A stretch of DNA of 64,000 nt, taken from positions 5,188,603 through 5,252,602 of the forward strand of contig NC_033633.1 of the NCBI RefSeq assembly GCF_001540865.1. Direction: 5' to 3'. The DNA comes from Ananas comosus. Lineage: Eukaryota > Streptophyta > Magnoliopsida > Poales > Bromeliaceae. The notes beneath the pieces were generated by a model. That model was not told the origin of the DNA and did no database searches. It saw only the letters and a program-made list of their open reading frames with translations. Within the stretch, counting starts at the first letter, position 1; every line of letters starts with the position of its first letter. The position numbers and the translations under genes were made by a program. Below are positions 21,013 through 60,725 of this stretch, one piece after another.

Positions 21013-22261
21013 TTAAGCCCGACCCGAATCCAAAATTATATTTTTAATACCCAAAGCTCGGCCCAAACAGGGCCCATCGAGCTTGGTCTTGTTTAGGCCC
21101 GGGCCTAGTTCCACCCCTAGCTATACCTGATTTACTTATTTCTACCCTTATTTATCTTTTCTGCCTATCGGTGTGTACAGCCTGCTTTTGTCTGCTTGCG
21201 GCACCCACTCGGAGAGGGAGACTTGTTTACATGTTCTCACCCCTACTATTTTTCAGGTAGCTTGGGCGGTGAGGGTTGGGACTCTAGGTTATGGGAACTC
21301 TAGGATCTATTTAGATACTATCAAACACCTAGAGTAGGGTGAATAGGTGTCTAGGCCAGAACACAAATCTCAATGCGATAAAAATAAATGTGAAAAATAA
21401 TAAAAACACACCGAGATTTATGTGGAAAAACTCCAACTTGGAGAAAAACCTTCAGGACCAACACGTGAAAAAATAATTCACTAAGAGTAAAAGATTACAA
21501 GGTGATTACCGACCCCACAGAGTTGACCTCTTTTTTATCTCCTACAGATCTCGCGCATACCGCTGGGTTGTCCACTCCCCACGTCCGAATCCACAGACGC
21601 CACCGGAATCCTCGAGCACTTATGATTTGAATCCACGAATCATCTTAATTATGCCAAATCCACAACGTCACTCACAAAGAGAAAATGAACGTTTCTATGG
21701 TGATCCATTGCTTAGAGTATCGTTAAAGAATTAGAGAAAAGATCTGTAAGCAAATCATAGATCAATTCGACATATGCATATTGAATTTCAATAACTTGAA
21801 ATAACCTAAAGAGGCTTTTTGGTGGAGAAAGGTTAAGAACGAAAAATCTAGCCTCTAGGGTTGCTCTCTCATGAATTCTTAGTGCTTCTATATCATAGAG
21901 AACCCTAACATTGTATTTATAGATTTTAGAATTAATTAGAGTCGGATTAGAGTCATATTAGGAAACCTGCACATTGAGTACTGGTACTCGGATGTGGGTA
22001 TCGGTATGCCATGACGCAATAGGAATTTCCTAATGCTAGGTACTGGTACTCGACCAATGCCGTACTGGTACCACACAACTTAGTACCGGTACTCAAACCT
22101 GGTACCGGTATGCAATTTAATTTGCATAATTGCTGCTCTCGGGTTCCGAGGAACTCACTATTGGGTTCCGGTACTCAATATAAAAAATCAGGTTTTTCAA
22201 TTCAATTTTGAGGAACCAAAAACTAGTACCAAAACACAATATAAAATATTGTTGTATATGA
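21013..22261. mobile_element. repeat remnants, including an LTR-like piece with degenerate ACCGGT palindromes
   Basis: 21013-21120 is a GC-rich piece with gcccg/cgggc inverted motifs ending at ggcccgggcc, like the ends of small non-autonomous DNA elements. 21130-21300 contains a ttctcacccctactatttttcagg segment like the acceptor region of the LTRs here. 21290-22261 resembles noncoding copia-type LTR sequence (gtggaaaaactccaacttgg) and carries ggtactggtactc, gtaccggtac (22083) and ctctcgggttcc near 22138. No coding sequence seen. Confidence 0.4.
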
Positions 22262-23070
22262 TGTCATGCCCTGGGGTTCTTTCGGAAAGTCCTCTTTAGA
22301 AAAACTAGTGGAAAACGTGTAGATTTTTTTTTAAAACACCTTTGAGAATATCCCGCAGACGTATACAAATTCGCCACATGGATAAAGGATTTTCTGTACA
22401 AACGGACAGAGTCCCTTTTGGACATGCACTGCGTAGCACCATAGTACAAGATCAAGCACACATGGAACCACACAACACAACATCTAATGCACATTAAACA
22501 ATAATAATCACAGAACACTAATTATCCACATCTATCCTTTGATATAAGTACATTAACAGGTAAAGAACTAAACTAATCCAACAGACATGAAAAGCTAAAC
22601 CAAATACTAGATATAAGGATTGATGAGGACCAAACAAGAACTCGGCTATCTAATATCGTCCTCACGCACCATCGTAACCCTTACTGTCCACATGTCACGC
22701 CCTGCACCCCACCTATTTGGTCAGGTTCAGGCACGCTAACAGACCGCCGAACGGACAGGGTTTCCCTGTGCCGCGGACAGAGTCTCTCCTGTACGTCCAA
22801 GGCGTCGCAATCAATACAATACAAGAGGTTACAAACAGGAACAGTATTCATTCATAGATTGCATAAGGAAGTATCAAAAACATAAAACTACTAAGCTATT
22901 ACAACATTCCACTTAGATACATTTTTACAACATAATTTTCTTTTACATTAAACTTCCGAATACAATCCCAAATCTTACAACTTGATAAAAGTTTGTTCTT
23001 GTCTTCAAACCTCCCAAGCTAGACCACCAACTCGGGTACCGCTACCTCGGTCTCTGGGGTAGGGCGCTAT

Positions 23071-23121
23071 CTACGGAGCCACGCCCTTGCCTCGCGCCGC
23101 CGCGCTGCTCACGTGAGTACC
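23071..23121 (-). CDS. LTR mini-exon ending RGKGVAP-stop
   Basis: On the minus strand a tttacag acceptor-like tract is followed by a short frame GTHVSSAAARGKGVAP and a TAG stop. The same C-terminal motif occurs, with different codons, in four other LTRs of this window (31412, 34215, 51144, 59227). It lies about 380 bases before the LTR 3' end. It would have to be spliced to an upstream exon to be translated; the donor is not established. Confidence 0.4.
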   Translation of the reverse strand, partial: GTHVSSAAARGKGVAP

Positions 23122-23683
23122 TGTAAATACCCCAAAACAACGTGGGGTGAGAACCAACTCCATGGTTCCCAGTGGGTACGGCCACCCAAGGGAAAAGCTC
23201 GGTCGATATGTCTAATGAGGCCCTGTAACAAGTTAGTCCAATAACATATAACAGATATATAGCAGATATTGAACTAAGTGTCCTGCCTCCCAAAATGCAA
23301 TATGCAAATCCCGTACTTATGCAAGTAGATTACTTTGTCCTACTTTATATTCTCGGCCATTCTTTACTTGTAACATTTCTTTACTTTATTAGCTATTCTT
23401 TTACATTAGCCGTTCTTTATTCTTTTCTTTTGTTATTCTCATTCTTTAGCCATTCTTTATTCTTAGCTAGCTTTGCTCTTTACTTGCCATTCTTTCCTAA
23501 GGTTACATATACCTCGGTCACACTATGCCACCCGACTCGATCTTGAGTGAATCAACAGCGGATAAGCCGCGCTCTGTCCGGCTCGAGGTGAAGGAACTCT
23601 CGCATGCACCTCAGCCTACAGACCAAGAACCACATCGCCTAACGGGTCGCCCAGCGTACCCCGTGGTCAGGGATCCCCCGATG

Positions 23684-23850
23684 GGAGAGGAACATGCCAC
23701 ATACACCCGCAGCCGAGATCCCCGATAGGGAGAGGAACATGCCACATACACCCTAGCGCTCACTGTTCTTGCTCGATCACAAACCTCGAAGTTCTTCCGG
23801 TGGGAGAGGAACCTTGCCACATACACCCGCGGCCAAGAACTTCCGAGCTC
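23684..23850. repeat. minisatellite of about 45 bp, three copies
   Basis: The unit gggagaggaacatgccacat followed by acacccgcagccgagat-like sequence occurs at about 23684, 23727 and 23801, the last more diverged. It lies in the GC-rich middle island of the solo LTR. The open frames over it are a by-product of GC content. Confidence 0.7.
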
Positions 23851-24878
23851 ATATGCTGCACTAGCAGCCGCTGCACTCGCAGCCAGGATTCCGGAATCCA
23901 CTTTACATAACTCAAGGGTTGGTCTTGTAACCCTATAGTTTCGACCTACTTAGGTCCATTGTCCTTTCCAACCTAGGTTTACTTGACTCTAGGTTTAACA
24001 CTTTTATCACATATCCTAGGTTTAATTTAACGCTAGGTTCATTAACTTGAACTCTCAACCTATGTTCTCTAACATGAGGTTCAATGTCTTTCTCATTAAC
24101 CTATGTTCAATGATACTAGGTTTCATTGCCACTCATCATCCTAGTTATTTATACTTAGGATTCTCAATTGACATGCCACTCGATATTCTTTCTTTACAAT
24201 GTCAAATTCTTTACTCAGAGTTCATTAATCTTATTTCACATTCATATCTAGGCATATGTCTTATGCATTTATCATTAGCATCTCAATCATGCACTTATAT
24301 ATCATCTAGTTCATGCACATAGTTCATGTGTTTACTTAATATACATCTTATATTCGTATGCACTTTATCTAACATTCATTTCTACATGAATATGTCATCA
24401 TCATGCAATTCATTCTATGCATTGTGCTTACCTGCATTCTTCTAGTTTACATGCATATTTATAGTCTCACAATGCTCGTCATGCATTTACATAGCATTTT
24501 ACACATACTACCAACATGCTTTAATTAGCATTAGCTATATGCATCCTATACATGTCCCATTTACATTTATATGCATCAACATAGATTTTTAAAATTTCTT
24601 GCACAAGGAGAAGAGGATAAAGAGGACTCTCCTCCTCAATAACTTCTTCTCCTTTCTTTCCTCCTCTTTTCTTGTTCTTCCTCTCATTCCTTTCTTCTTC
24701 TTCTTCTTTCTTTCTCTTTTCGGTTTAGAGAGAGAGAGAGCAAGAGAGGTGTGAGAGAGAGAGAGAAATGAGAGGGAAATGAGAGGGGAGTGGACCCTCA
24801 GCCCTCATATAGGCATATTTGCAAATAAACCCCTCTATTTTTCCTATATCTGAAACATCTCCCGCTGTTCGTGCTCCT

Positions 24879-25063
24879 TGTACCGGTACACGGGGTCTTG
24901 TACCGGTACAAGGCCTGGCAGACAGCCCAACCCGAGAGCTGGTTCTCTCGGTTACGCAGGGTACAAGGCCCCTTGTACCGGTACAAGGCCCCTTGTACCG
25001 GGCAGCTCCAACCCGAGAGCTTCACTGGTTGTACCGGTACAACCATTGGGCTTGTACCGGTAC
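24879..25063. promoter_or_regulatory. GTACCGGTAC palindrome array in LTR
   Basis: Perfect GTACCGGTAC at 24880, 24900, 24975, 25031 and 25054, most extended to TTGTACCGGTACAA, plus a half site near 24995. Cccgagagc motifs lie between them (24929, 25013). The array is in the U3-like part of the solo LTR, upstream (on the minus strand) of its leader. Translated frames over it (VPVQ, YRYK) are artefacts of the repeat. Confidence 0.7.
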
Positions 25064-25826
25064 AAGACATCCAGAATGTCATTTTTGACTTCGATTCCGC
25101 TCTACTTCGCGCTGTTCGATGCCAAAACCCTTCCAACTCTTTTAGAGCTTACTTTTAGCCTTCCAATAGTGATGGAATATTAATTGGGACTTGTCCATCC
25201 ATCTTCTTCGCATACTTTAGTCGATTTGGCTAAAGTTCGCTAATTCCTTCTGGGTTCCAATATGTTACATTCTCCAAACATATTTTCGAACATGTCTCCA
25301 TCATCTTTTCATCCACGCTAATGCCGAACTTAGCTCACGGCCCAACATAGTCTTTCGGGTTCCGTTTTCGCGCCTACGCGCACCGAAACGCTCGAAAGCT
25401 TCCGAACTTCACCGAACCTCACCGGAACCATTCAAATAGTTTTCCAACCCAACATACACCGTGACTTCATATCTTTAGAAGTCCGGTATGTTACACCACA
25501 TCACTTGAAAAATGGTGGAGGGTGAGAACATGTAAACATGTCTCCCCTCCCAGTAGGTATTGCAAGCCGATGAAGGCGAGTTGTACTCACTGGCAAAGGA
25601 AGGGATAACCAAAGCAATGAATAGATATTGTAAGATCAGTAGCAATGAGATAACAACAGACAATAAATACGAAAATACCACTACTGAGTAGAAAACAACA
25701 ACTAGGCATAATCAATAGATATATTGGCAAATAATGCAATATACTAAATGGCCCATAATGGCAACTAGCCGAAAGAGTAATCCACAAATGTCTGCCCGAA
25801 TTAGGTCCACTGTTTCCAAAGGAGAA

Positions 25827-29396: not shown

Positions 29397-29594
29397 TGTA
29401 ACACACTGAACTTTAGCAAATCGCAAGGATCGAGTGTTCGAGCTGTGTTCTGAACTTTTTCAGATTTTTTGGAGGGTCGTTGACTGTGTTCCGACCTATG
29501 ACTCGCATCCCGAGGAGCGAGGATGAAAACTTAGAACCAAAATCTCCAAATTGCAGATTTTGGGCTGCTCTCGGGTTGAGCTCTGCAGGGCAGA

Positions 29595-29820
29595 GTACCG
29601 GTACTGCATCGGCGGAGTACCGGTAAGGGACCTGGTACCAGTACTGCATCGCGAGGGTACCGATACGCAGTGTATTTTCTCGCTCGACCGAGGCTCGGGT
29701 TTGGGGAGCTCGGCTGCCTGGTACCGGTACTCCAGCCCGCGTACCGGTACGCAGTGCAGGTGCAGACTGCACATTATTGAGGGGTTTTTTTGAGTTTGTT
29801 ACAACTCTATATATACCCCA
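29595..29820 (+). promoter_or_regulatory. U3 region: ACCGGT palindromes followed by TATA box
   Basis: GTACCGGTAC occurs perfectly at 29595, 29721 and 29741, and with one change at 29617, 29635 and 29657. Tctcgggttg and ctcgggtttg motifs lie at 29572 and 29694. A TATA-like element (ctctatatata) follows at about 29803, with the leader starting shortly after. The 3' LTR repeats the layout (41909-42042, then TATA near 42098). Order and spacing make this the element's promoter; the role of the palindromes is inferred. Confidence 0.6.
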
Positions 29821-31411
29821 CGCCCCCTTTTGGGTTTCCTGAGCTTGGAACCAGAGAAGAGAAGAACCAGGTAGGGGACTTCTCCACTTCCCCTCTTTGA
29901 TTTTCTTTTCTTTTTACTTGGATTTTGGGGGATTAATCATCTCTTTTGCTCCTTTTTGGCATGTTGGTGGTTTTCCACTATTGGAGAAGCTTGAAGTGAG
30001 AGATTGGAGCTTGTTTGAGGAAAGATCTCCAACCCTAGCATCTTCTAGCTTGGTTTGGAGCTTGGGAAAAGGTTAATATCCTCTCTACCACTTGTAATTG
30101 TGGTTTTGCTTGAGTTTTGGGAAGAAAACCTAGTTATGTGGAATCTAGGGTTTTATTTGGGGGTTTTTGATTAGTAGCTTTTGGGGCTAAATTGATAGGT
30201 GTAGAACCTTCTTATAGGTGGGATTAGAAGTACTCTAGCTTCCTTTTGGAGATTGGGAGGATGTTTCACCATCCAAGGTGAGTTTTGACCTTTCTTTGGG
30301 TTGGTTAAAGTTTAGCTCGTGGGGTGTTCATTCATTACTCCTAACCCTCTTAGAATTTTTTTTAGGGAGCTAGGAGACTAGTGGACATCTTCGTTCGCGC
30401 AAACGAAGGGGATCCGAGGAGTTCTTGGTGGGTTTGACCTTACCGAAATAGGTGAACTCCCCCTATGTTATATTTCTTATTGTAAAATGAAAAATTATGC
30501 ATATTCATGCTAGATAGAGCATATGTGAATTTTAGAATGTTTAAAATTCATATGTTATGTATCATAAAATTTTACCTCTATGTAGTAGAGAGATAAGTAC
30601 ATAGTAATCATGCAAGTTAATGGCATTCTTTTATTTGGCTTGGAATCATGTTTTATATAGTGAAAATGACAAGAATAATATGCTCTTGGACATAGAACAC
30701 ATGCTTGACATAGTGAATATTAGTGTCATAAAGTGGCACTCAACTTAGTAAATTGTTAAACACTTACTTGTTGACATAGTGATAGGCCATTGGGACATTA
30801 GCCTTTATATCATGTTTTAGACATTATGACATTGGACTTGAGATGGATGACTACGCTTGCTTGTCATTGTGCTCATTCGCACATGCTTGTGAGGGTCGCT
30901 CCCCACAAGCCGGCACTCCGGAGATAGCCAACGTGACATAAGCTCGCCAGTGCGGGATTGGGCGCCGAAATGGGATGCCGTGGGGGAGGTTCATTCCTAG
31001 AGTGGGAATGTTGACTACCACGGGGCCATTAGGCACGGCGCAAGCAGGACTACCATGTGTAGGTCCTTATGATTGGAAAAATCTTGAACTAAAATGTAAT
31101 GTAGACATTATACTAAATGTGAATGTAGACATCCTAATAGTTGTACTTGTGGACATCATATTATTTATATACATGTTCATTCTTGTTAGAATAACTCTTG
31201 TACATGTGAAATTCATGCTAAGTAGAGGTATAGTAGTTTAGTAAAATTTATTACATGCTCATTATACATGTTGTTTATTTTCGCTAAAAGTTAAATTTTG
31301 CTACTTTTACCTGCATAACCTAGTGGTGTATTTCACTGATGTCGGCGGCTTACCCACTGGGAACTATTGATTAATAGTTCTCACGCCCCCTGTTTTGTTG
31401 TTTTTGTTACA

Positions 31412-31468
31412 GAGCCTTCCACTCCAGAAGAAGCTAGGGACCGCGGCAAGGGTGTCCCCTCTAGCTAG
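31412..31468 (+). CDS. LTR mini-exon EPSTPEEARDRGKGVPSS-stop
   Basis: Preceded by tgttttgttgtttttgttac-ag, a strong pyrimidine tract and AG, with tagttctcac (branch-point-like) about 35 bases upstream. The 18-residue frame ends TAG. Related frames in four other LTRs share E-P-x-x and D-R-G-K-x-V/I near the end, using different synonymous codons (CGC/CGT/CGA, GGC/GGT/GGA, AAG/AAA). A possible donor is the ccaaggtgagtt at 30276, but reading-frame continuity is not shown. Confidence 0.45.
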   Translation, partial: EPSTPEEARDRGKGVPSS

Positions 31469-31813
31469 TTAGCGAGGAGCTTGCTTTTAGGTGGTTCATC
31501 TCTCCTTTTGTTTTAGTTGGAAAGAGTGAGAGTTTTTGTACCCTTTGTGTAGAGACCACCATTTTTATATATTTAGTTCCTTGTATTTGGGATCTTGTTG
31601 TATCTACATTATGGATTATGTTAGTTGTTTAGTTCTTTTATTTCTACTTGTCTTTAAAATTTAATTGTATTCACGCTCTGATATCTCTAGATGCTTGTTA
31701 CTTCTGTTTTATTTATCGCTTGTTGTAGGCGCCTTATATGTTGTAGGCATATGGCGGGTCTGGACATGCACCGGGCAGGTTTTCGCTGGTTCCCAGGGCG
31801 TGACAGATTATAT

Positions 31814-31826: not shown

Positions 31827-32269
31827 TAGGGTTGAGTCTTAGTGGACCTAGTAAACCTTAGGCCGGTTGGACTATAGGAAATAGGCTCGTGAGAGACGGG
31901 TTTATTTGACTTGTAAGTGAAAGTATCATGATTTCGTTTTATATTAACTCTAAAATGTCGTAGTTTAATCGAACTGTATAGCTTCTAACTTCGCGGAGGG
32001 TTACGTTGGCGGCCGACAACGTAACATCGGGAGTTAGTAGTGAAACACATTTCATTACTTTCGCTGTAACGTATCGAAACCCGAAAACGATTATCGAACT
32101 TTGATCAAATTGGTTAAAGTGTTGAGAGAAAGGGGCTGGCGAGTTCCATTTTACATTCCAACAAGGTTGGAAGGGTGAAAATGAGTTTAAGAAGTGTTGG
32201 AATGGTTTTGGCATCGAACGGCGCGAAGTAGAGTCGAAACGATGCAAAAACAGCATTCTGGAGCATTGT

Positions 32270-32466
32270 GTACCGGTACGCCATGATGGCTGTACCGGTA
32301 CAGCAAGTGACCCGAGCACTGGTTGCTCTCGGGTTTGAGGCTGTGCGAAGGTGTACCGGTACGGGACCCGTGTACCGGTACACAAGCTGCGCAACCGAGA
32401 GAGCTTGCTCTCGGGTTTGGGCCTCTGCGCAGGTCCGTACCGGTACACAAACCCGTGTACCGGTAC
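32270..32466 (+). promoter_or_regulatory. GTACCGGTAC palindrome array (six perfect copies)
   Basis: Perfect copies begin at 32270, 32292, 32353, 32372, 32437 and 32457, arranged in pairs about 20 bases apart, with ctctcgggtttg motifs between pairs (32327 and 32409). Located about 0.33 kb after the LTR start and before its leader. The pairing could suit a protein that binds two adjacent turns of DNA; that is inference. Confidence 0.65.
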
Positions 32467-32642
32467 ACGGTGGGTCTGACAGCCCAGTGAAGTCTGCTAC
32501 AGAGATAAAGCTGAGGGGCCTATCAGCAATTGTTACAACATGTAATAGAGGTATTCCCTCCTCTCTTCACAGCACACACACCTCTCCACTCTCTTTTACA
32601 TTTCCTCTCTTTCTCTCTCTTAAACCCTAGCTCCAAGACTTG

Positions 32643-32787
32643 GAGAAGAAGGAGAAGAAGGTGGAGAAGGATTGGAGGAGTGAGTTTAGAAGGCTTTGGT
32701 GGTTCTAGGGGCTCNGAGAAGAAGGAGAAGAAGGTGGAGAAGGATTGGAGGAGTGAGTTTAGAAGGCTTTGGTGGTTCTAGGGGCTC
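32643..32787. repeat. identical 72-base duplication around a single N
   Basis: 32643-32714 and 32716-32787 are the same 72 bases (gagaagaaggagaag ... ggggctc) with one N between. This is what a scaffolder produces when two overlapping contig ends are placed side by side. The true sequence most likely has one copy. Confidence 0.9.
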
Positions 32788-33829
32788 ACCTACAAGGAGG
32801 ATCTTGTTGGAGCTTGGGCTAAGGTGAGGTTTTACACAAGTTGAGCCTAGGGTTTGGGTTTAGACCTTAGATTTTTGGGTTTTGATCTCTCTACAAGTGA
32901 GGAAACCCTCTAAAGACCTTGAAACCATGAAATCCATGGTTATCTTGGACCCCTCTCATGGTGGATCACTAGGGCTCAAAATAGATGCCATAGGGATGGT
33001 TCTAAAAGCTTAGAAACCTTATTAGAGAGCTTCCCATGTGATTCTAAGCTTTCTTTTGCTTAGCAATGAGATCAATCTAGGAAAAATACAAAAATGACAT
33101 GTTAGGGTATCCCAAAGAGGGGTTTTGCCCAAGTTGGGTTTTGATCTATTTTGATCATGTAGAAACCTAATTGATGGTATTTTAAACGCGTTGGAACGCT
33201 CGGTTCGACAATCCGACGAGTGTATGCAAAGTTATTAACAAAAACGTCATTTTCCGTACAGATAGCCGCAGCACGCGGACTAGGGCTTCAAAAATTTCAA
33301 GAAATTCACCATAGCATCCTTGTAACCATCTACGGTGGGTGGTGCATTCCAAGGACATCGAAAATTTCTTTATGTCTAAAGTGTCATATTTGAGCATATA
33401 TATTTATATTGAGCAAGTTGCATAGTAGGGTTAATTGTAAATTTCCACTGCATGATATGAGTTCTAATGCTTGAGAAATAGTAGTAAATGAATGAGAATT
33501 GGTAACCCTATATATGCATGACATGGGACAAGAACCTAGAAGGGTTAGTAAACAAATGTGACATGTTAACATAGACATAGAGTATGGCATGAGTACCAGA
33601 ACATAGCACTTAGAAAACAAGTGTGGCATCAATGACAAAGAACAAGAACAAGTAGTGTACATGACACTAGAAGAGGTTAGAGAATGCAAGTAAATTGGGT
33701 TTGTGACATTATGACATATACACCTTAGAGTTAAGGGTCATATGAACATGGTTCTCCTTGGAGTCAAGGAATGGATTGAACTTGGAATCCTTAAAGTTAA
33801 GGATTGATCGTACTCACCTAATAGTCCTT

Positions 33830-33955
33830 GCTCGAGGGCGGTAGCTCCCCCTCGGGCGATGTGCTCCGGAGTTGTCATCACTGGGTCGTAGCGATTATCT
33901 CCCCAGAGGGCGGTCCCGTCGGGTCGTAGCGGTTATCTCCCCGACAATAGGGATT
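33830..33955. repeat. GC island with short repeats in solo LTR
   Basis: The 22-base word gggtcgtagcg-n-ttatctcccc appears twice (33885 and 33925), next to ctcgggcgatgtgctccggag. Equivalent GC islands occur mid-LTR at 30890-31050, 8840-8950, 23600-23880 and, reversed, 51550-51720. Noncoding. Confidence 0.55.
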
Positions 33956-34214
33956 TGGGTTGGTGAGTTTGTAAGGGCGAAACCTACGGGCTAGTCATGA
34001 GATTGGGTAATGAAAAGTTAATCTTGCATTCATCATGAGCATACTATTGAGCATAGTTTTACTTATCGTTCAGGCATATTAGCTGCATTTGTTAGTTGGT
34101 TATTATCTATTCTTTCTTCTATTATGTCTGATTAGACCTAGTGGGATAGTCGGCGTGGTTGGTTGCCGAACCCACTGGGAACTTTGTTGTAGTTCTCACC
34201 CCACTATTTCCACA

Positions 34215-34268
34215 GAGCCAGGACCGAGTGAGCCGGCAGATGATCGCGGTAAGGGCATCGCGCCCTAG
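34215..34268 (+). CDS. LTR mini-exon EPGPSEPADDRGKGIAP-stop
   Basis: Follows ccactatttccacag, an acceptor-like tract, with agttctcacc upstream as a branch-point-like word and the block ccactgggaac at about 34174. The frame ends TAG. It shares the first E-P and the DRGKG(I/V)A ending with the frames at 31412, 51144, 59227 and 23071. It lies about 440 bases before the LTR end. Confidence 0.45.
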   Translation, partial: EPGPSEPADDRGKGIAP

Positions 34269-34792
34269 GTAGTGACCGCCCGAGATGGTTATCATTTTGT
34301 AGTCGCATACCCTTTACTATCATCTTTTGTATTTGATGATTTTAGTATCATGAACTTGCTTTAATGAATGATGTAAAGGATATTTATTTTAAATGTCAAA
34401 ACTTATATTTTGGGAGAAATGAGATGTGAAAAGAAATGATGCAAGAATGTAAAAGAACTTGATTATAATTGGATGCATGTATGTGATTTAAATTTAGTCA
34501 TATCACTTGTATATTGATTGGTTAATTCTTTCACCTTGGCTATTGCTTACCCTCGTGCAAGCCATTGTGTATGCTTCCGCTTATGCAAATTTTACTCTAT
34601 TGATACTTGTTATTGAGCCTTGGGCGGACAGGGAAGCTCTGTCCATTCAGCGTCTGTTTGACGCTCTCGAACCGGCCAAAAGGGATTGGGCTAGGGGCGT
34701 GACATTCGCATGATTTGAATATTATTCTCTTTGAGTGGGGTTGCGATAGCGTGGGTTTTACTAATTTGCGCTTTTATGTTGTTGTAGTGATT

Positions 34793-35985: not shown

Positions 35986-38045
35986 TGTAAGGAAATGTGC
36001 GCATCTGTATGTGCATTTAATGCAGCGGAAATAAATTTTATTTATAAAATATGATCCAATCATGTATACTTTAATATCATAACATTTATGATATTAGTAT
36101 ATATATGTATCAAGATCATCTCGTGTGACACACAAAATTATTATTCTAATCTAATTAGAAGAAAGGTTCGAATTTCAACCTGTGCAATGTACCGAATTAT
36201 TTCACGGTTGACGTGGATCTAAACTTCTGGTCCTTTGAGCCGCACAAGTGTTCGGCCTCTACGTGTATCCACACAAGGCTGATCCGAGATCTGTGCTTCA
36301 CACAATCACAGTGTAATCTCGAAACTCCTTTCGTGATATCTTGTGTCAATGTGGAGAAAAATTAATCCTCAAAATTGTGCTAGCAATTTGAAGAGGATTA
36401 ACTATAGAGACTAATTAATATTGGAGGACCACTCTCTTATGATTAAAAGAGAGCTCTATACAATTAAAAAACTTTCTCTCTTTGTTTTGTAATCTACTTC
36501 AAAACACCTATATTGTAATAATCCTCATCATCAAGATATGCCATTATTTATAGGTGAGGCAGCATACGAGTAGAGAGAAGCGAAAGAGGCGGGGAGACGT
36601 TCTCTGCACAATTAATAATGTGTTTCTCCCTCTATAAAAGAAAAGATTGTGGAGAGGAGTCCCATAAATGAGAGGAGTTAACTCCTCTCATTTAGTGCAT
36701 GGAGATGCGAAGAGAATGAAGAGAAAAAGAAGTTTTCTCTTCTACATCATAAATGCTAGAGTTTCTCCTTTTATCTTTTCTTCCACTTTCACTTCGTAAC
36801 TCCTCAAATTAATCTTTATTAATTGAGGAGTTGATGAGAGAATAATTTAAGTGCAAGTGCACCATATGCAACAATTGCGTTTAACTCTACAACTTTTAAT
36901 TTTACAAATTGGTCCTTCTTGCTAATCAATTTAGCAAGTAAATTCAGGCTTTGCTACTTTAGCAAAATAGTCTCTATTAATTCTCCAAGTACTAGATCAC
37001 ACGCAGCCTTTATTGTGTGTGACCACATAGATTCAATTCTACCTGGTAGTGAGATGTGATAGTAAACTCTTTTAATGTCACCATCGAAACTCTTCTCGAT
37101 GGACCAAAATATTTTTGGCTCTCCCAAGTGAGTGTAATTAACTATCTTAATTACTCTCATAGGTCCCACAATCCACGAGTGACACCTAGCAGTGTATCGC
37201 GGCAATCCAAGTAGAATTAATAATAGACGGAACCTCTAGGTGTAGTTACCGTGTGATAAAATCCTTCTATCACTAGTCCCGATTTAGCCGAGGTTATGGA
37301 TTACTCGTCAAACCCCATTACTCAATCATATGTCTCATCTGATTAACAATTAATATGGAAACTCTTTTCCATAAAATCATACTGCCTTGGCCAAGGACTT
37401 TTATATCTTGTAAAACAGATAGTATAGGACAATTACCTCTCTACCGAGGTTGATAGATTCCATCTTGACACACACTTACCTCCACGTATGACCCACTGCA
37501 GCCAACATGTGTTGACTTAACCCATGATTAGGGTATAGGTATTTACACAGTCAAACTACAATAACCCACACGCAAGATAACCATGGTGCCTAAAGTCAAA
37601 GGATCACTCACACTACTACAGTATGGAACAATTCACTGACGAGTGAGTAGACATCCATGTGATTGTTTATAGTTGGTCACGCTCAGTGAAATTGTTCTCC
37701 AACATTCACCTGTATGCTTATTCTAGTGTCACCACACTAATGACATGAGGCTCGTCATCCCATAAAGGAAGTACAGTATACACTGATCTATCCGGATTTA
37801 CCACTGCCCTTTTGATAATCCTATGATCAGGAGCATTTAAGAATTAATTACAGAAGAATATATGTCTCAAATTTCTAACTTCTTAGAAAGTTAATTCTTC
37901 TAGTATTACTTCTATGGACGATTCATAAATATGCATTTGGCAATAATATGAATGAAGAATGCTAGATTTAATCATAAAAGAAAAGTACACTGATATTAAC
38001 CCTTTAAGTTATGACAAGATTGGCTTATAGGGCATATAACTAACG
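35986..38045 (-). mobile_element. Angela-like copia solo LTR inside the gag zinc knuckle
   Basis: Plus-strand start TGTAAGGAAATG at 35986 and end ATATAACTAACG at 38045, so the minus strand begins (C/T)GTTAGTTATATGCCCTATAAGCC, reminiscent of Angela/BARE LTR starts (family resemblance from memory, not tested). Flanks gtgct (35981-35985) and gtact (38046-38050) are a 5-bp target duplication with one change. Removing 2060 bases plus one duplicate brings the second Cys knuckle of gag back into frame across the join. No internal copia sequence is present, so it is a solo LTR. Ends differ from TG...CA by one transition. Confidence 0.8.
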
Positions 38046-38694
38046 GTACTTCCTTTGTGGCCAGGAGGGCCACTTTCGGACCAAATGCCCGAGGGGTTCA
38101 TCACCGTCACCGTCATCTGCATCGGTACCGGCTCTATCAGCTTCTAGCCGGGGGAAACCATCGGCGCACTACCCGTCTGGGCGGCCACCCATCCAGCGAC
38201 AGTCTGAGGGGTCACGACAGGCCCCGAGCGGGCGTATGTATGCAGCCCAGACGGAAGAGGCGGCAGCAGCCGAGGATGTGGTGAAAGGTATCATTTTATT
38301 AAATGGCATTCAAGTTCGAGCTTTATTTGATACCGGTGCATCGCATTCATTCATAAATCGGCTGTTTGCCGAGCTGCATGACATCCCACTAGTTTCTTTG
38401 TTGCATCCGGGAAGTGTTGTTGTACCCGACCACACCTTGAACATTCGGGAGTTTTGCCCCAGTTGCCCTGTTCGGGTAGGGGATTGGATTATATCCGTGG
38501 ATTTGCTAGCCTTGCGCAAGCTGGGAGAGTTTGATGTGGTTTTGGGTATGGATTGGTTGACGAGATACTTCGCCTCTATCGATTGCAAGAATCGAACTGT
38601 CACTTCTAGAGAACCGGGTCAAGATGAAGTTGTTTTTAGAGGATGCCAGAGCTCGCTGTTTGCGATGACGGTTAGCTCTTCATGAGCTAGGCAG
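38046..38694 (+). pseudogene. second zinc knuckle, linker and aspartic protease
   Basis: Opens with CGQEGHFRTKC, the second half of a CxxCxxxxHxxxxC knuckle, followed by a Ser/Pro/Arg linker. The frame from 38236 reads VKGIILLNGIQVRALFDTGASHSFI, with the protease active-site DTGAS at 38329-38343, and FDVVLGMDWL farther on. This domain is open for 150 residues; its only break is TGA at 38683, probably from CGA. The protease would cut the polyprotein. Confidence 0.88.
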
Positions 38695-39813
38695 TTGATC
38701 AGCAGAGGTTGTATAGTCTATTTGGCTAGTGTTGTGCTGAGGGGTGATGATGACACCCCTAGGATTGAGGATAACCCGGTGGTATGGGAGTTTTGTGACG
38801 TGTTTCCAGCGGAGCTACCTGATATGCCACCTGATAGGGAGATTGAGTTTGTGGTAGATCTCATCCCTGGGACTACCCCAATCTCAAAGGCACCCTATAT
38901 GATGGCACCGGTTGAGTTGAAAGAGCTGAGGGCACAGCTGCAGGATTTGTTGGATAAAGATTTTGTTCAACCTAGCATCTCACCTTGGAGAGCGCCAGTT
39001 TTGTTCGTCAAGAAGAAAGACGGATCGCTTCGGTTGTGTGTGGATTATTGTGAACTTAATAAAGTCACGATCAAGAACAAGTATCCGTTGCCAAGAATTG
39101 ATGACTTGTTTGATCAGCTTCAGGGATTATGTGTGTATTCCAAGATCGACTTGCAGTCGGGATACCACCAGTTGAAGATCAAGCCCGAGGATGTATCGAA
39201 GACGGCTTTCAGAACACGGTATGGACCTTATGAGTTCATTGTTATGCCGTTTGGGCTTACTAATGTCCCGGCAGCTTTTATGGATCTAATGAACCGTGTT
39301 TTCATGTCGTATCTAGACAGGTTCGTCGTGGTGTTCATCGACGACATTTTGGTTTATTCTCGAAGTGACAAGGATCATGAAGAGCATTTAAGACTTGTAC
39401 TTCAAGTGGTTCGAGAAAAGAAGCTCTTTGTCAAGTTGAGAAAGTGCGAATTTTGGCTTCGAGAGGTGGCATTTTTGGGAAACTTGATTTTGGGATTGGG
39501 TATAGCCGTGGATCCTAGGAAGATTAAAGCTATCAAGGATTGGCCTAGACCGACGAGTGTCACTGAGATCCAGAGTTTTCTTGGTTTGGCCAACTACTAC
39601 CGGAGATTTATTGACGGGTTTGTGAAGTTGTCTACTCCCCTCATGCGGCTCACACACAAAGGCACCAAGTTCATTTGGAATGATGCGTGCGAGAGAAGCT
39701 TTCAAGAGCTGAAGGAACGGTTGACGACCGCCCCAATCCTGACCTTGCCAGTAGCTGGAGCAGGGTATGTGATTTATAGTGATGCATCTTTTTTATGCAG
39801 GATGGAAAAGTGA
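38695..39813 (+). pseudogene. reverse transcriptase, intact frame of 372 codons
   Basis: The longest open frame in the window. Landmarks in order: [105 protein letters not shown] (catalytic FIDD) and [12 protein letters not shown], then thumb and the start of RNase H (YSDAS). A deletion of some 24 bases with a frame change just after YSDAS (about 39790) ends the frame. The catalytic aspartates are present, but without intact RNase H and integrase the element cannot move by itself. Confidence 0.9.
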
Positions 39814-40110
39814 TCGCGTGTGCTTCTCGCCAATTGAAGGAGTATAAAAGGAGCTATCCTACACATGATTTGGAGTTGGCGGCCGTAGTCTTTGCCTTAA
39901 GCTATGGCGTCACTATCTTTATGGCAAGCGGTGTGAAGTATACACGGATCACAAGAGCTTAAAGTACTTATTCACTCAGAAGGAGTTGAACTTGAAGCAG
40001 CGCAGATGGTTGAAGCTACTCAAGGATTATGATTTGACAATCCTCTACCACCCGGGCAAGGCTAACGTGGTAGCAGATGCTTTAAGTCGGAAGTCAACAG
40101 AAAATTTGGC
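39790..40110 (+). pseudogene. RNase H domain, two frame breaks
   Basis: After the deletion the frame continues [19 protein letters not shown], [13 protein letters not shown], then a single-base loss near 39900 shifts it; the +1 frame resumes with [15 protein letters not shown] sequence and, from 39986, [19 protein letters not shown] and [17 protein letters not shown]. The DAS, E-L and D-H-K blocks of gypsy RNase H can all be located. It would remove the RNA template during cDNA synthesis. Confidence 0.8.
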
Positions 40111-41660
40111 AATGCTTGTAGCCACACAACCGCCGTTGATTGAGCAGATGAAACAGTTGGAGTTGGAGGTGGTGGCTCCTGATACACCCTTGAGATTGAT
40201 GGCTTTAGTGGTGCAACCTACCTTATTGGAAAGGATTAAAGAAAAGCAAGTTCACGATGTAGAGCTGCAAAAGGTTCAAGCTAAGATGGTTGATGGTTAC
40301 ACCGGTGATTATCACGTGGACGACCAAGGGTTCTTGTGTTTTCGCGAGCGGATTTGTGTACCGGCAGAATCGGGAATTAAAGAAGATATTCTTCAAGAAG
40401 CTCACCGTGCATCCTATGCTTTACATCCAGGAGGCACCAAGATATACAAGGATTTGAAGTTACTTTATTGGTGGCCCGGAATAAAAAAGGACGTTGGCTA
40501 GTTTGTAACTCGATGTTTAACTTGTTAACAAGTGAAAGCTGAGCACCGACTACCCGCGGAGAAACTTCAAAGTTTATCTATTCCCGTGTGGAAGTGGGAA
40601 AAGATCACCATGGATTTTGTTATGGGATTGCCTCGCTCTCAGGTCGAGCATGATGCTATTTAGGTGATCGTGGATAGGTTGACGAAATCGGCTTATTTTA
40701 TACATATTCACACGACTTGGACTGGTGAGAGACTCGCACAAGTGTACCTTAATGAGATTGTGCGACTTCATGGAGTGCCTACTTCGATAGTATCCAATAG
40801 AGATCCCAGATTTGTATCTCACTTTTGGAGGAGTCTGCAGGATGCATTGGGCAATCGTTTGGATTTCAGCACTGCTTTTCACTCTCAGAGTGATGGACAA
40901 TCTAAGCGCACTATACAGACATTAGAGGATATGCTTCGAGCGTGCGTGATAGACTTCTAGGGAGGATGGTCACAGCACTTACCGATGGTAGAGTTTGCTT
41001 ATAACAATAGTTATCAAGTAAGAATTAAGATGGCACCCTTCGAAGCATTTTATGGACGGAAGTGTAGATCGTCATTTCATTGGAGTGAAGTTGGCGAGAG
41101 ATTGGCTTTCGACCCTAATGTGCTCTAGGAAGCAGAGGATAAGGTTCGCCTTGCTCGAGAGCATTTGCTGACGGCTCAGAGTAGACAGAAGAGCTATGCT
41201 GATAAGCGACGACGAGACTTGGAGTTTCTAGTTGGAGATCATGTTTTCTTGAAAGTCTCGCCGACCAAAGAAATTAGAAGATTTAGCATTCGGGGTAAAT
41301 TGAGCCTCCGGTTTATTGGACCGTATGAGATTTTGGAGTGTGTAGGCCCTGTAGCGTATAGGCTTGCTCTACCATCGAACCTATCGGGAGTGCACAATGT
41401 GTTTCATGTTTCGGTCCTTCGGAAGTATATCTTCGACTCAGCTCACGTTTTGGATGTTTTACCATTGGAGCTGAGGGATGATTTGAGCTTTGAAGAGCAA
41501 CCGGTAAGGATCTTGGCCCGCGAGATAAAGAAACTTCGGAATCACGATATTTCTTATGTGAAGGTTCTTTGAAGCAACCACGATAAACGCGAGGCCACGT
41601 GGGAGTTGGAGAGCGCACTGTAGGAGCGCTATCCCCATCTTTTTCAGATGGAGTCTTGAG
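40111..41660 (+). pseudogene. integrase with GPY/F motif and chromodomain-like tail
   Basis: Zinc-finger part [26 protein letters not shown], then C..C with TAG (40499) and TAA (40526) stops; catalytic core with [12 protein letters not shown] (first Asp), [15 protein letters not shown] (second Asp) and [13 protein letters not shown] (Glu). C-terminus RFIGPYEIL and NVFHVSVLRKY. The tail SFEEQPVRILAREIKKLRN..., then VKVL and EATWELES, matches the chromodomain-like end of Tekay elements. Further stops at 40661, 40958, 41127, 41572 and 41621 are single C-to-T type changes. Confidence 0.88.
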
Positions 41661-41711: not shown

Positions 41712-42632
41712 TGTAACACATTGAATTTTAGCAAATCGCAAGGTTCGAGTGTTCGAACTGTGTTCTGAATATTTTCAGGTTTTCTAGAGGGTCGTTGACT
41801 GTGTTCCGACCTATAACTCGCATCCCGAGGAGCGAGGATGAAGACTTGGCACCAAAATCTCCAAATTGCAGATTTTGGCTGCTCTCGGGTTGAGCTTTGC
41901 AGGGCAGAGTACCGATACTGCATCGGCGGAGTACCGATATTGGACCTTGTACCGGTACGCAGTGAATTTTATCTTTTGACCGAGGCTCGGGTTTGGCGAG
42001 CTCGGCTGCCTGGTACCGGTACTCCAGCCCGCATACCGGTACGCAATGCAGGTGCAAACTGCATATTGTTGAGGGATTTTTTTGAGTTTGTTACAACTCT
42101 ATATATACCCTACGCCCCCTTTTGGGTTCCCTGAGCTTGGAACCAGAGAAGAACCAGGTAGGGGACTTCTCCACTTCCCCTCTTTGATTTTCTTTTCTTT
42201 TTACTTGGATTTTGGAGAATTAATCACCTCTTTTGCTCCTTTTTGGCATGTTGGTGGTTTTCCACCATTGGAGAAGCTTGAAGTGAGAGATTAGAGCTTG
42301 TTTGAGGAAAGATCTCCAACCCTAGCATCTTCTAGCTTGGTTTGGAGCTTGGGAAAAGGTTAGTATCCTCTCTACCACTTGTGATTGTGGTTTTACTTAA
42401 GTTTTGGGAAGAAAACCTAGTTATGTTGAATCTAGGATTTTATTTGGGGGTTTTTGATTAGTAGCTTTTGGGGCTAAATTGATAGGTGTAGAACCTTCTT
42501 ATAGGTGGGATTAGAAATACTCTAACTTTCTTTTGGAGATTGGGAGGGTGTTTCACCATCCAAGGTGAGTTTTGACCTTTCTTTGGGTTTGTTAAAGTTT
42601 AGCTCATAGGGTGTTCGTTCATTACCCCTTAT
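41712..42632 (+). mobile_element. 3' LTR, truncated
   Basis: Matches the first 0.93 kb of the 5' LTR (29397-30330), including the palindrome array, TATA box and leader, then stops abruptly at about 42632 where AT-rich sequence begins. The missing 1.5 kb includes the mini-exon. Shared parts differ by several percent, largely C/T and G/A exchanges. Confidence 0.88.
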
Positions 42633-50782: not shown

Positions 50783-53217
50783 TGTCACGCCCGGGTACCA
50801 GCAGAAGCATATCCGGTACGTGCACGACCCGCCATACACCTGCAGTATATAAGGCGTCTACAAGAAACAAGTCGATAGGAGTTAAAACATAAAATAATCC
50901 TATCCTGATATCAGAGCATAGTAAAAGTCACAAAGACTATCAACAATAGAACAAGGAGTATATATTCCACAAACTCAACAAAACGTGAAGTATCACAACT
51001 ATAATATCTGTCCAAAGAGTAAATATACATCACGGGGTATACAAAACGAATAGGTACAATAGTGGTCTCTCTATACATAGGGACATCACCCTCGGCCGTA
51101 GCCCGAGTAATAAAGTGATCGACTAGTACGTTCCTAGCAATGTCTAGCTAAACGCGACTCTCTTGCCACGATCCCTAACCTCTCCTGTAGATGGCTCTGT
51201 AAAAACAACAATAAAAAAGGGCGTCAGAACTATAAACAATAGTTCCCAGTGGGTAAGCCGCCAGCCTCGGCGAATTACACCACTAGGCTCATGATGTACT
51301 AAATGAAAGCAAACACGATAATTGCATGATATATAAGCATGATGCTAACAAGTAATGAGCATGTAATCAATATGTAATAGCTTTCTACAGTAATGAATCA
51401 TTTGCATAATAGAGATATAGCAACTTCTGTAATCATGAACATATACATGAATATGAAAGTAACTACTGTACATTTTAACTAGTAAGCATTCATTACTGTC
51501 CTTTGTCATTTAGTACTTTCACCTCAATAGAGTTTTCCTTTCATTCAACAAGACCTACCCAAGGTAGTCCGACTTGCGCCGCGCCTAAGGGTCTCGTGGT
51601 AGTATGCACTCCCCACGGCAATCCATTTCGGCACTCAATCCCGCACGGGCGAGCAACTGTCGCGTAGGCCAACTCCGAAGTGCCGGCTTGTAGGGAACGA
51701 CCCTCACAAGCGTGTGCGAATGAGCACGATGGCAAGCAAGCATATTCCACTGTCCACATGTCTCAATTATCATGTTTTCATTTGCAATGTTCTTACCCTC
51801 GATCCTCTGATCGGAATTTCAATACACAAATAGTAACAAAAACTAGTATCCACTAGATTGTAAACATGTAAGAGTAATGCTAAATCACATGGTATTATAA
51901 TCTTTCCACTATTATGGCACTGTCAACATAGTCATAAGCATGTCATAGTTCTCTACTTTAGAGTCAAGAGAATGTCATTATTTTCTACTTTATAAGTGCA
52001 TCCTACACTTGTTCATAAGTCATTCTACAGTATTAGACATGATCATAAATACTTTTATGCATGCAGTCTCTCTACTTCATCTCTACTTCATAGAGGTACA
52101 ATGTCAGACATATCAAACATGGTGGCAAAGATGTCCCGATTCATATTAATCACGTAGTCGCAAAAAACGCACGACAAACCCATTCTATAGTGACATATAG
52201 AACATAGGGGAGCTTCATTTGCTCTGGTTAGGTCAAACCCATCTATCACTAAGCTCAATACAGCCCAACAGAAGCTTCAAACTCAGCTCACACGGTCTCT
52301 GGACCTGCTAAAAACAAAGCATCAAAACCGCGTCGAAACGATTACTTAACAATCCAATTTCGGCTCCAATCACACATAGTACAAAGTAATAACTTAGTTC
52401 CCTGCTTCGGGCTAGCTTAATACCTCAAGTTGAGTCTCCAAGAGCTCTCACAAGTCAACTAAAGACGATCCAAGGCTCGATCGCACTCTCGAGTTATAAT
52501 TCACTAATTATCCTTAATAAGCTTAAAGGCAACTATTCTCTGAGTTTAGATGGATAATTAGTAGCCAAAATAACTCTTCTTCACTGCTGTAAACATCTTC
52601 TAATTCGGTTAGAAGCAGCAATACCAAAACGGCTCAAAATTCGACACTAAACCATAAACTAGAGAGAAAATCAAGTTAATTACCTCTCTAAAGTTTTCAA
52701 CCAGCTTCTCAGGTAGTAACCTCACAAAAAACTCAGCAAACTTCCCTCTCCCCACGTTCCAAGCACTGCCCTTGAGTCTCCAAACCAGCGAGCAACAAGT
52801 ACGACGCGAAATCGGCGCGAAACGGCGAATTTTACATAGAGAGAGAAAAACCCTAGAGAGAGAGAGAGGGAAAAGGGGAAGAAGCTTGCTCTGAGCTCTA
52901 AGGGCCTTCCAGCAACTTCAGGGGTCGACCAGGTATCTGTAGGGATAAGATTAGATGCCAAGAGACCAAAAAATTCCTGCTGCCACGCACTAGCTGCCTC
53001 AGCTGCTTGCTGTACCGGTACAGCATAATGCCTGTACCGGTACACAATGCAAAATCTGCCCAATGCGCAGAAGCAATACACTTTCTTGTTTCCGGCAATT
53101 CGATCACTCTCTAACTTGTCGAAAAACTTGTCCAAACCTTTCAGAATATGTAGGATAGTTCCACAACTCATGCCACACACTCGAACTCCGCAATTTGCAA
53201 AAGTTCAGTGTATTACA
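50783..53217 (-). mobile_element. solo LTR with target duplication tctat
   Basis: Plus-strand ends TGTCACGCCCGGG ... TTCAGTGTATTACA; both flanks are tctat (50778-50782 and 53218-53222). Same family as the LTR at 29397-31805 in reverse orientation: shared start TGTAACAC/TACACTGAACTTT, GC island, ccactgggaac block and mini-exon. 2435 bases. Two perfect palindromes GTACCGGTAC at 53012 and 53034. Confidence 0.93.
51144..51197 (-). CDS. LTR mini-exon EPSTGEVRDRGKRVAFS-stop
   Basis: Minus strand: tgttgtttttacag acceptor-like tract, then GAG-CCA... to TAG. It aligns residue by residue with the frame at 31412 (EPST, then RDRGK, V) although several codons differ at third positions. It lies about 360 bases before the LTR end at 50783. 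The block gttcccagtgggtaagccg (51241) lies upstream on the minus strand, as at the other copies. Confidence 0.45.
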   Translation of the reverse strand, partial: EPSTGEVRDRGKRVAFS

Positions 53218-58927: not shown

Positions 58928-60725
58928 TGTCACAGCTCGGATTACACGTTTTTCCGGGCACGCCGACAAATCCGCTGTATACAAAGGACTTTTTCCTGTA
59001 TACGAAGCGATAGCTGTACCTGTAAACAAATTCAAACTACAACTAGTAGTATAGAGCTGCTAAACTGAACTGAATATAAATACACATCAGGTTCACTATA
59101 AATACAAAGCCTCTCAGATACAACATCCCTCGCTCCAGTGAGTAACTAGTATAAGTATGTACATGAATCAAAAACCAAAACTACATGTAGCTGGTACTCC
59201 TCTAGTACTGCAACCAGGAAAGGGATTTAGCTCGCGACTTCTTTTCCACGATCAGTATCAGCGACAGCAGCAACCGCAGAAGAAGGCTCTGCAAAAAGGG
59301 GTCAACAAGTGGGTACCGCTACTGACCTCAACAACTCACCCACTAAGTCTACAGAAAGTATGCAGAAGGATAATAAAGAAAACTGGTAAAACTCTACAGC
59401 TATATGCCACTATACTATCGCTAACCAACACTAGCTATCTATAGATGTGAGAAAAATACAACCTCTGACCGAACTCACTAGGGACTATGAACGCACCCGT
59501 CCCACTCGTCGAAGCTACACCAACCACCACTACGCTGGGTTGTTGGTGGAGAGCAAGTCCAGGCAGGACACTACGATATCAACGCAAAAGCATTAAGCCC
59601 GACTCCGGAGTGGCACTCGTGGGCGCTACCCAACCGAGTATGCAAGGATGTCTCTGTCGAGCTCAATCAGGCTCTCACAGGCTATAATCAAAGCAAGTAG
59701 GTCTAATGGTCTAACAACTAAAGCTCACGTGCCCTTGGCATAATCTGATGCAAAATACAGAAATTTGGGTCCACCGTCAACCACAACGGCACCTGACAGT
59801 CCGAAACAGTCTACACACTACTGTAAAATAAGCTCGGCATCTCAGCACGAGCGTAAACTCATCCTACACTAATCTGGATATCCATCGCATACTAACAGCG
59901 AAGATACAATAGAACTATAGCCCCTAAAGCTAAATCTGGTAATTTTCAGAAATGACAATGTAGGATCTATATGTTTTCTCCTAAGTCAATACCAAGTCCA
60001 ACATGTAAAATTAAATATTAGCTTAACTCCAAATTCAGATTTTATATTCTAATCCATGAATTCGAGTACTAGCAAGAAAATAAACCAAGAATACATGTCG
60101 ACTATATTAAAACTTAGAAGGTATTCTGACGATTTCGGTAAACTTCAACCCACCTCAAAAAGCTCGTCTAACTACGGCGAGAAGTCGAAAGGAGGGAAAA
60201 CACGCACTCGCCCGGCCTTCCAGCGATGTAACCGCGACGCACGCGCTCCCGAACGGCCCTCCGAATCGGCATTGGAAATCTCCCGAGCTCAAATTGGATC
60301 TCCACCTCAAACACGATCCAAATACTAGAGAGAAAAAGATCTCAGCTAACCAAGTTGATAAAGATGAGGGTGAGTAGGTGGCAACCTTATCAACCTACAA
60401 CAAAGAAAAAGACCATAATGCCCCTTTACCAACTCCACATGACAGCTGGAGTACCGGTACCCGATTTGGTTATCAGTTCTCGGCCTCTCAACCTACAAGC
60501 TCACGCACAGGGTACTGGTACCAGCCCGATGCCGTACCGGTACTTAACACTGAAATCCTGCACTTTGCGGATTTCAGCGTAAGAACTCCACTATCACCTC
60601 GCGTCTAGTCCGTTTGCGTCCATTTCGCGCTAAAACGACTCCGACTTGTTCCAACACTCTCCACATGTGTCGACAAGCCTCAAATGCTGAAATCTCACGG
60701 GCAACCAAACACCTAGGATACTACA
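58928..60725 (-). mobile_element. solo LTR with target duplication aataa
   Basis: Plus-strand ends TGTCACAGCTCGG ... GGATACTACA, flanked by aataa on both sides (58923-58927, 60726-60730). 1798 bases. Contains GTACCGGTAC at 60451 and 60534 with ggtactggtacc between, a GC-rich leader with gccggccttcc around 60210, and the mini-exon at 59227-59289. A different LTR family from 50783-53217 by sequence, but with the same internal layout. Confidence 0.92.
59227..59289 (-). CDS. LTR mini-exon EPSSAVAAVADTDRGKEVAS-stop
   Basis: Minus strand: acccctttttgcag acceptor-like tract, then GAG-CCT-TCT... and a TAA stop. It starts EPS and ends DRGKxVA like the frames at 31412 and 34215, with GGA-AAA in place of GGC-AAG. 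It is three codons longer in the middle, a change that preserves the frame. About 300 bases before the LTR end. Confidence 0.45.
   Translation of the reverse strand, partial: EPSSAVAAVADTDRGKEVAS

Follow-up and report, generated by a model that had tools for sequence, protein, structure and literature searches.

Why should long terminal repeats (LTRs) that otherwise differ from one another carry, at a fixed place, a short exon-like segment selected for its peptide? The window analysed here, a stretch of 64,000 nucleotides of pineapple (Ananas comosus) DNA, contains five such segments, which an initial annotation had read as spliced mini-exons expressing a small protein or an N-terminal extension, with the upstream exon also in the LTR. 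The five frames were found where that annotation had placed them, each preceded by a pyrimidine-rich tract and CAG, and the segment indeed looks like an exon selected for its peptide. The exon starts had to be moved one base later (to 31413, 34216, 51196, 59288 and 23120), and the place within the LTR is fixed as claimed, at a measured 361-489 bases from the 3' end where 300-450 had been given.

LTRs carrying the mini-exon

The coordinates of the LTRs and their mini-exons are collected in Table 1. The primer site that follows LTR A is presumably of the tRNA-iMet type, and the target site duplications (TSDs) of the solo LTRs B, C, D and E are perfect 5-bp duplications. The 3' LTR of element A starts at 41714 and is truncated near 42620, upstream of its own mini-exon position. 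Since gag-pol of this element is broken and its 3' LTR is cut before the mini-exon, copy A itself would be unable to make the RNA proposed below. Palindromic repeats of the GTACCGGTAC type were also seen in the 5' part of dissimilar LTRs (window positions 32190-32480, 24876-25100, 29590-29760 and 60440-60560).

Table 1. Positions in the window of the LTRs, mini-exons and element A features discussed in the text.
Feature	Position	Strand	Remarks
LTR A	29397..31805	+	5' LTR of a Del/Tekay-like Ty3/gypsy element; starts TGTAACAC, ends GTGACA, then primer site
LTR A mini-exon	31413..31468	+	(E)PSTPEEARDRGKGVPSS-stop; first codon split in phase 1
LTR A hairpins	31319..31383	+	Two adjoining hairpins and CTCAC branch-site-like motif, 5' of acceptor
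LTR B	32065..34704	+	Solo LTR, TSD TTCGC, within leader of element A
LTR B mini-exon	34216..34268	+	(E)PGPSEPADDRGKGIAP-stop
LTR C	50783..53217	-	Solo LTR, TSD ATAGA
LTR C mini-exon	51144..51196	-	(E)PSTGEVRDRGKRVAFS-stop
LTR D	58928..60725	-	Solo LTR, TSD TTATT
LTR D mini-exon	59227..59288	-	Long form, (E)PSSAVAAVADTDRGKEVAS-stop; LTR D without second hairpin
LTR E	22693..25495	-	Solo LTR, TSD TGTGG, nested in older LTR F
LTR E mini-exon	23071..23120	-	(G)THVSSAAARGKGVAP-stop
F	25501..25598	-	Sixth hairpin and acceptor module; frame without RGK motif, interrupted by LTR E
G	21204..21303	+	Seventh hairpin and acceptor module (TTTTTCAG); frame GSLGGEGWDSRLWEL-stop, without RGK motif
Element A gag end and protease	38044..38682	+	Zinc-knuckle end of gag and aspartyl protease; zinc knuckle by eye, Pfam gives protease families only
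Element A candidate donor	38276..38297	+	Phase 1, Gag/protease; GTGAAAG|GTATCATT, GT at 38288
Element A pol frames	38686..41569	+	Reverse transcriptase, RNase H and integrase, broken

Pfam searches of the window element and of a young element of the B family (L089) returned the Ty3/gypsy order of gag, protease, reverse transcriptase, RNase H and integrase. Window positions 38044-41569 matched RVP_2, RVT_1, RT_RNaseH, Integrase_H2C2 and SH3_Tf2-1, and L089 matched Retrotrans_gag, Ty3_capsid, zf-CCHC, RVP_2 and RVT_1. The clade name Tekay is a tentative assignment from protein and LTR features. In such elements a chromodomain is expected after the integrase; at 41129-41569 Pfam found the SH3-like integrase domain and zero chromodomain matches, and the segment ends at a stop codon at the expected chromodomain position. 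Scans of viral contigs and prokaryotic genomes returned no relative. A protein search with the gag of A yielded 86 proteins, 79 of them bearing the label Ananas; of the remaining seven, five are nameless, one is labelled Macrophomina (a fungus) and one Caballeronia. According to passages of a pineapple survey, Del elements make up 16.4% of the assembly and mostly lie near Peabody (PMC6022998).

Frame, selection and flanking signals

The mini-exons of LTRs A, B, C, D and E are 56, 53, 53, 62 and 50 nt long, the copy longer by whole codons being that at 59227-59288. Their first codon is split in phase 1, so that the LTR exon supplies its last two bases and the exon upstream its first; an upstream G would give Glu in A-D (G|AG) and Gly in E (G|GT). 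Together, the window and the pieces of genome fetched for comparison provided 12 tail types with a common frame and stop, and in the representatives of all 12 the mini-exon comprises 16-20 codons, the split codon included, so that the stop lies 16-20 codons past the predicted junction.

Modules were also sought by their hairpin alone, ignoring the peptide. This yielded 74 modules, 43 of them distinct, in the window and a set of fetched loci, and an RGK-like frame with its stop was present in 33 of the 43. Three of the other ten contain the frame or a one-residue variant of it (window E and the second module in L019, both of which had escaped the pyrimidine filter, and L017 with CGK). The module of L003 is frameshifted, that of L018 is without AG, and five are degenerate or different (the second in L018, L034, L066, F and G). 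Most loci had been fetched because they matched the 31412 copy, the 34215 copy or the gag of A, and the sample of families is therefore not random.

Codon differences fall mainly at third positions, as had been noted from the window copies. A single sequence was taken to stand for each of the 12 tail types; compared pairwise, these sequences differ 81 times at the first, 51 times at the second and 291 times at the third codon position (permutation P 2e-5), with 204 synonymous versus 121 non-synonymous codon differences and a P of 0.0036 for the four codons outside the alignment anchor. The representatives were picked by tail and the five degenerate or RGK-less modules left out, which tilts the test toward the peptide, and the families share ancestry. 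Copies are related, which makes counts non-independent. A test on five copies gave 8, 8 and 45 differences at the three positions (P 1e-4).

Within a single family the pattern can be followed through closer copies. The A mini-exon gave 40 scored matches of 1574 candidates, and 20 of the 39 outside the window were fetched. Together with the window copy, the frame was kept in 20 of 21 copies, and AG likewise in 20 of 21. The 20 in-frame copies (the frameshifted one was dropped) differ by 20 synonymous and 24 amino-acid-changing variants and by no nonsense variant, where the flanking mutation spectrum predicts a synonymous share of 0.26. Within about 2.2 kb downstream, a primer site was seen at 3 of the 20 A-family loci (L010, L013 and L028) and a gag match at 2 of the 20 (L013 and L028), the remaining loci among L009-L028 being solo LTRs, 3' LTRs or fragments by appearance.

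From 5' to 3', the module is laid out as a terminal exon would be, with hairpins, a motif resembling a branch site, a pyrimidine-rich tract and CAG ahead of the 16-20 codons, and with the stop and a UUGUA-rich stretch behind them. Single-sequence folds 5' of the acceptor gave two adjoining hairpins in A, C and F, the second hairpin with other pairings upstream in B and E, and the first hairpin only in D, with z-scores for A-F of -2.0, -1.6, -2.7, -1.1, -0.8 and -4.4 (the value for A from a 91-nt fold). Covariation was weak: a single pair of the second hairpin is altered on both sides (T-A to C-G in E), and a consensus fold of five of these stretches contained no covarying pairs. We therefore describe the hairpins without regarding them as proven; they could conceivably tune splicing at the adjacent acceptor. 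The motif after them (CTCAC, CTGAC or TTGAC) resembles YUNAY, the branch-site consensus.

Counts of TTGTA differ between the two sides of the stop, with 23 in the 1813 bases downstream (12.7 per kb) versus 20 in the 10259 bases upstream in the same five LTRs (1.9 per kb). Shuffled sequences contained 5.4 on average and 12 at most, and 0 of 500 reached 23. UUGUA is a plant far-upstream polyadenylation motif, and the layout is as expected for a last exon followed by polyadenylation signals; it would lie in the transcribed part of the 3' LTR.

The literature searched (mostly titles and abstract openings, with most subscription journals outside its scope) contained no description of such an exon in Tekay/Del elements. 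We consider it very probable that the terminal exon is real, under selection and undescribed in that literature.

The upstream exon and candidate donors

As an exon, the LTR segment is well supported by its frame, codon pattern and flanking signals; a partner donor for it is suggested by the comparisons that follow. Donor-like sites were seen 3' of a TATA-like box at window positions 29800-30280 (+) and in A-family LTRs among L009-L028. Across 15 A-family LTRs, GT is kept in 15/15 at GAG|GTTAGT (30072) and in 14/15 at AAG|GTGAGT (30278). In the frame of the 30072 donor, the open stretch contains a Met in none of the 15 copies and exceeds 11 codons in only 2 of them; in that of the 30278 donor, a single late Met occurs in 2 of the 14 GT-bearing copies. 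ATG frames before donors above the score cut-off in the other LTRs were scattered, none being common to them, in a scan whose LTR starts for B, C and D are 2 to 18 bases off those of Table 1. Within this scope, no frame that enters the mini-exon from an LTR donor is both conserved as open and equipped with a start codon, and an upstream coding exon in the LTR was rejected for this reason.

Two consequences follow. Because the stop is shared, the mini-exon cannot be an N-terminal extension; and because no conserved coding exon was found upstream in the LTR, the partner coding exon should be in the internal region. A GC-rich, hairpin-prone-looking block was also seen 5' of the exon at 30849-31080 (+), 51500-51747 (-), 33800-33980 (+) and 23600-23900 (-), with 137 bases 85% identical between A and C in LTRs that are otherwise diverged. 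In 10 of 15 copies, one and the same TAA interrupts its best frame. The block looks non-coding and is perhaps a structured RNA element, for example a packaging or dimerisation signal.

We scored donors in gag-pol against approximate plant splice-site frequencies, reading the pol of B up to the start of reverse transcriptase. Within that range, phase-1 sites common to A-type copies and B were found at the Gag/protease boundary and at the DTG codon of the protease, 48 bases downstream. The boundary site (..VVA-G|I.., GCAG|GTAT) falls after the zinc knuckle and ahead of the catalytic part of the protease, and its phase-1 GT is present, in the same letters, in A-type copies, in the young B element and in a third element (L071). 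Its mean score is 5.5 in A, a moderate value, and 8.0 in B. No copy, among 18 of A type and 21 of B type, differs synonymously at the codons GCA GGT, whereas the Val codon before them has 10 such changes in the A-type and 1 in the B-type copies. Around and at the donor, however, 8 of 14 codons in A-type and 4 of 14 in B-type copies are free of synonymous change, so that GCA GGT does not stand out among equally fixed neighbours and argues weakly for a donor. A changed Gly codon is found in three of the 18 A-type copies and in one of the 21 B-type copies; GCA and GGT were each kept in 19 of 20 boundary copies, which were picked from 150 scored matches and form part of the 21 B-type copies.

A second site, AAAG|GTAAGA at 35794 in the KGK stretch of A gag, is the strongest donor in the A frames scanned and is in phase 1. 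Across A-type copies the KGK donor has a mean score of 7.7, above that of the boundary site, and all 17 of 17 retain a GT at the first KGK Gly codon; its phase is labelled 0 in this comparison because a single reference copy supplied the frame for counting. Most A-type copies do not have GGT at the second KGK Gly codon, which holds the best donor of the window. The KGK donor was at first favoured for its score and phase in A, and was demoted to a rival because the young B element L089 reads AAG GGG AAG there, without GT. In two young B elements (contigs C96 and C18) the boundary donor is flanked by the mini-exons of both LTRs, and the predicted introns from donor to exon measure 5526 nt (C96, with the donor at position 3313 and the 3' LTR exon at 8839) and 5465 nt (C18). 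Tails were intact in all three of the exons examined, out of four in these elements.

Annotated Ananas proteins were compared with these sites, with joins deduced from the end-points of similarity in gene models that are possibly purely computational. The gag similarity of P0088 ends exactly at the boundary donor (PDDVVA|), and that of P0001 at LDKGK. P0076, P0085 and P0087 end with the mini-exon tail after differing upstream sequence, namely pol before a B-type tail in P0076 and apparent LTR sequence in P0085 and P0087; P0084 ends in the variant RDHGKGVA. A database search for the donor exon joined to the tail retrieved no such protein (9 candidates and 1 match, from which the tail was absent). 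Two probes for a Gag-to-tail junction in genomic copies likewise gave one-sided matches only, among the best 40 of 825 and 40 of 978 candidates.

Another tail, EPGDPxSTLAV..TGTAAV, with which the annotated gag proteins P0011 and P0056 both end, was considered as a further mini-exon and dropped, as it sits in longer contiguous open frames. This repeat was seen at 150 scored places of 172 candidates, in contiguous frames that often span 112 residues.

Proposed Gag splicing and its alternatives

In the Del/Tekay-type elements of pineapple, the mini-exon may plausibly serve as the last coding exon of a subgenomic Gag mRNA made by splicing, a reading that we hold tentatively and on sequence comparison. 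Full-length RNA would start in the 5' LTR and receive its poly(A) tail in the 3' LTR, beyond the mini-exon. A fraction of this RNA would be spliced from the donor between Gag zinc knuckle and protease (VVA-G|, GCAG|GTAT) to the acceptor of the 3' LTR, removing about 5.5 kb that is expected to comprise protease, reverse transcriptase, integrase, the polypurine tract and U3. The spliced product would be a complete Gag ending ..VVA-EP..DRGKGVA-stop, without protease or polymerase, and the unspliced RNA would provide Gag-Pol and the genome; splicing would set the Gag:Pol ratio. Having lost the polypurine tract and U3, the spliced RNA should not be copied into new elements. If it does not replicate, then junction-spanning genomic copies are not expected, although a lack of such copies fits an absence of splicing too.

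It is possible, and we put it forward with reserve, that the Del/Tekay elements of pineapple, and perhaps those of other plants, meet the need of single-ORF elements for more Gag than Pol by splicing gag to an LTR-borne coding exon. Free Gag would then carry a conserved DRGKG-type tail absent from Gag-Pol, the spliced RNA would be barred from replication, and solo LTRs would be portable last exons.

The same terminal exon might instead be joined to a different donor, be it the KGK sites at 35788/35794 in A, the protease DTG codon or a site in pol, the product being either a shortened Gag or an accessory protein that ends in the RGK tail, comparable to the small regulatory proteins made from spliced Ty3/gypsy or retroviral RNAs. 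The strength, phase and 17-of-17 conservation of the KGK GT in A argue for this, as do the end of gag similarity at LDKGK in P0001 and the passage from pol to a B-type tail in P0076. Yet the young B element has no GT at KGK, the second KGK Gly codon is mostly not GGT in A-type copies, and the annotated proteins disagree among themselves on the sequence before the tail. We regard this alternative as unlikely, if still a serious contender. We rate as rather improbable that the main role of the acceptor is in excising an intron of the 5' UTR within the 5' LTR, the frame being a by-product or a short untranslated exon. The well-kept LTR donors at 30072 and 30278 would use this same acceptor, and P0085 and P0087 have apparent LTR sequence before the tail; but a non-coding exon leaves unexplained the third-position pattern, the whole-codon length changes and the shared stop, as well as the UUGUA enrichment directly after that stop. 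The two uses can coexist, and a 5' UTR intron of more than 1 kb inside the 5' LTR may share its acceptor with the mini-exon.

Two further readings concern the peptide itself. The frame could have no translated function and reflect a conserved DNA or RNA structure with chance codon periodicity, or relics of an ancient capture, as the persistence of the hairpin module in F and G despite the absent RGK frame might suggest; given the codon-position test, the conserved stop and the lack of nonsense variants, we find this highly improbable. The initial proposal of a small protein or N-terminal extension, its upstream exon also in the LTR, was right in taking the acceptor and the coding exon as real. 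An extension is contradicted by the stop that ends the frame in 12 of 12 tail types compared, and a small protein from an LTR-only transcript finds no conserved open LTR exon with a start upstream of it, which leaves that proposal with hardly any likelihood. Gag splicing to the mini-exon remains our preferred reading.

If this model holds, then the pineapple system would work like the Gag splicing known from Ty1/copia elements. Passages of PMC3735527 describe a spliced copia RNA from which nearly all of pol is deleted, a Gag-dedicated RNA from a single-ORF element. Splicing pol away to obtain a Gag RNA is what we predict here, whereas Drosophila copia is a Ty1/copia element and the pineapple elements are Ty3/gypsy and have their putative acceptor and a conserved coding tail inside the LTR. 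BARE1 of barley makes Gag from a spliced RNA with a donor CAG/GTAT at the gag end (PMC3735527, in part), which resembles the candidate pineapple site GCAG|GTAT; it loses 104 nt and reaches a stop three residues on by frameshift, and shGAG of EVD/EVADE in Arabidopsis is a spliced Gag RNA that has lost the protease region (passages of PMC3735527 and PMC12786077). Both belong to Ty1/copia, while the predicted pineapple intron spans about 5.5 kb, has its 3' end in the 3' LTR and would create a conserved new C-terminus.

Coding sequence that extends into the 3' LTR is also found among chromoviruses, in CRM group A, where the integrase frame reads into the 3' LTR (the CR motif) in passages that mention no splice (PMC3059260). 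That read-through is contiguous, whereas in pineapple the exon is set about 2 kb into the LTR and is preceded by an acceptor; in A, as judged from one degenerate copy, pol stops before the 3' LTR and no contiguous frame of the CRM type was found. Ogre resembles the proposed system as a plant Ty3/gypsy element with facultative splicing, in its case of an intron between gag-pro and pol that regulates polyprotein expression (PMC6317226, in part). Splicing in Ogre enables pol translation, and in pineapple it would remove pol. A recent review, in the portion available, calls plant LTR elements generally intronless, with Ogre and EVADE as exceptions and BARE1 added later (PMC12786077). Excerpts on long reads from triticale class 14 Copia GAG RNAs and one Gypsy GAG RNA, the latter intronless (PMC7765848), and excerpts on sunflower reads report spliced short GAG isoforms of two elements (PMC7730604), one of which is called Copia in part of a later paper (PMC9784723). 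Some Tekay transcripts are also present in sunflower long-read cDNA (PMC9784723).

If the model is true, then splicing to an exon carried by the LTR would give these elements a new means of producing Gag in excess of Pol. Every solo LTR would in turn be a ready-made last exon, with acceptor, short tail, stop and polyadenylation signals, able to end neighbouring transcripts. The exon sits in LTRs of what is apparently the most abundant lineage of a crop genome. LTRs are usually taken as non-coding, and that they can carry a selected coding exon matters for gene annotation and for transcripts ended by solo LTRs. In this regard we observed that P0087, P0076 and P0085 of Ananas comosus var. bracteatus have Ty1/copia-like integrase, pol or apparent LTR sequence joined to the tail, as if solo LTRs acted as portable terminators of other transcripts, or as annotation artefacts would appear.
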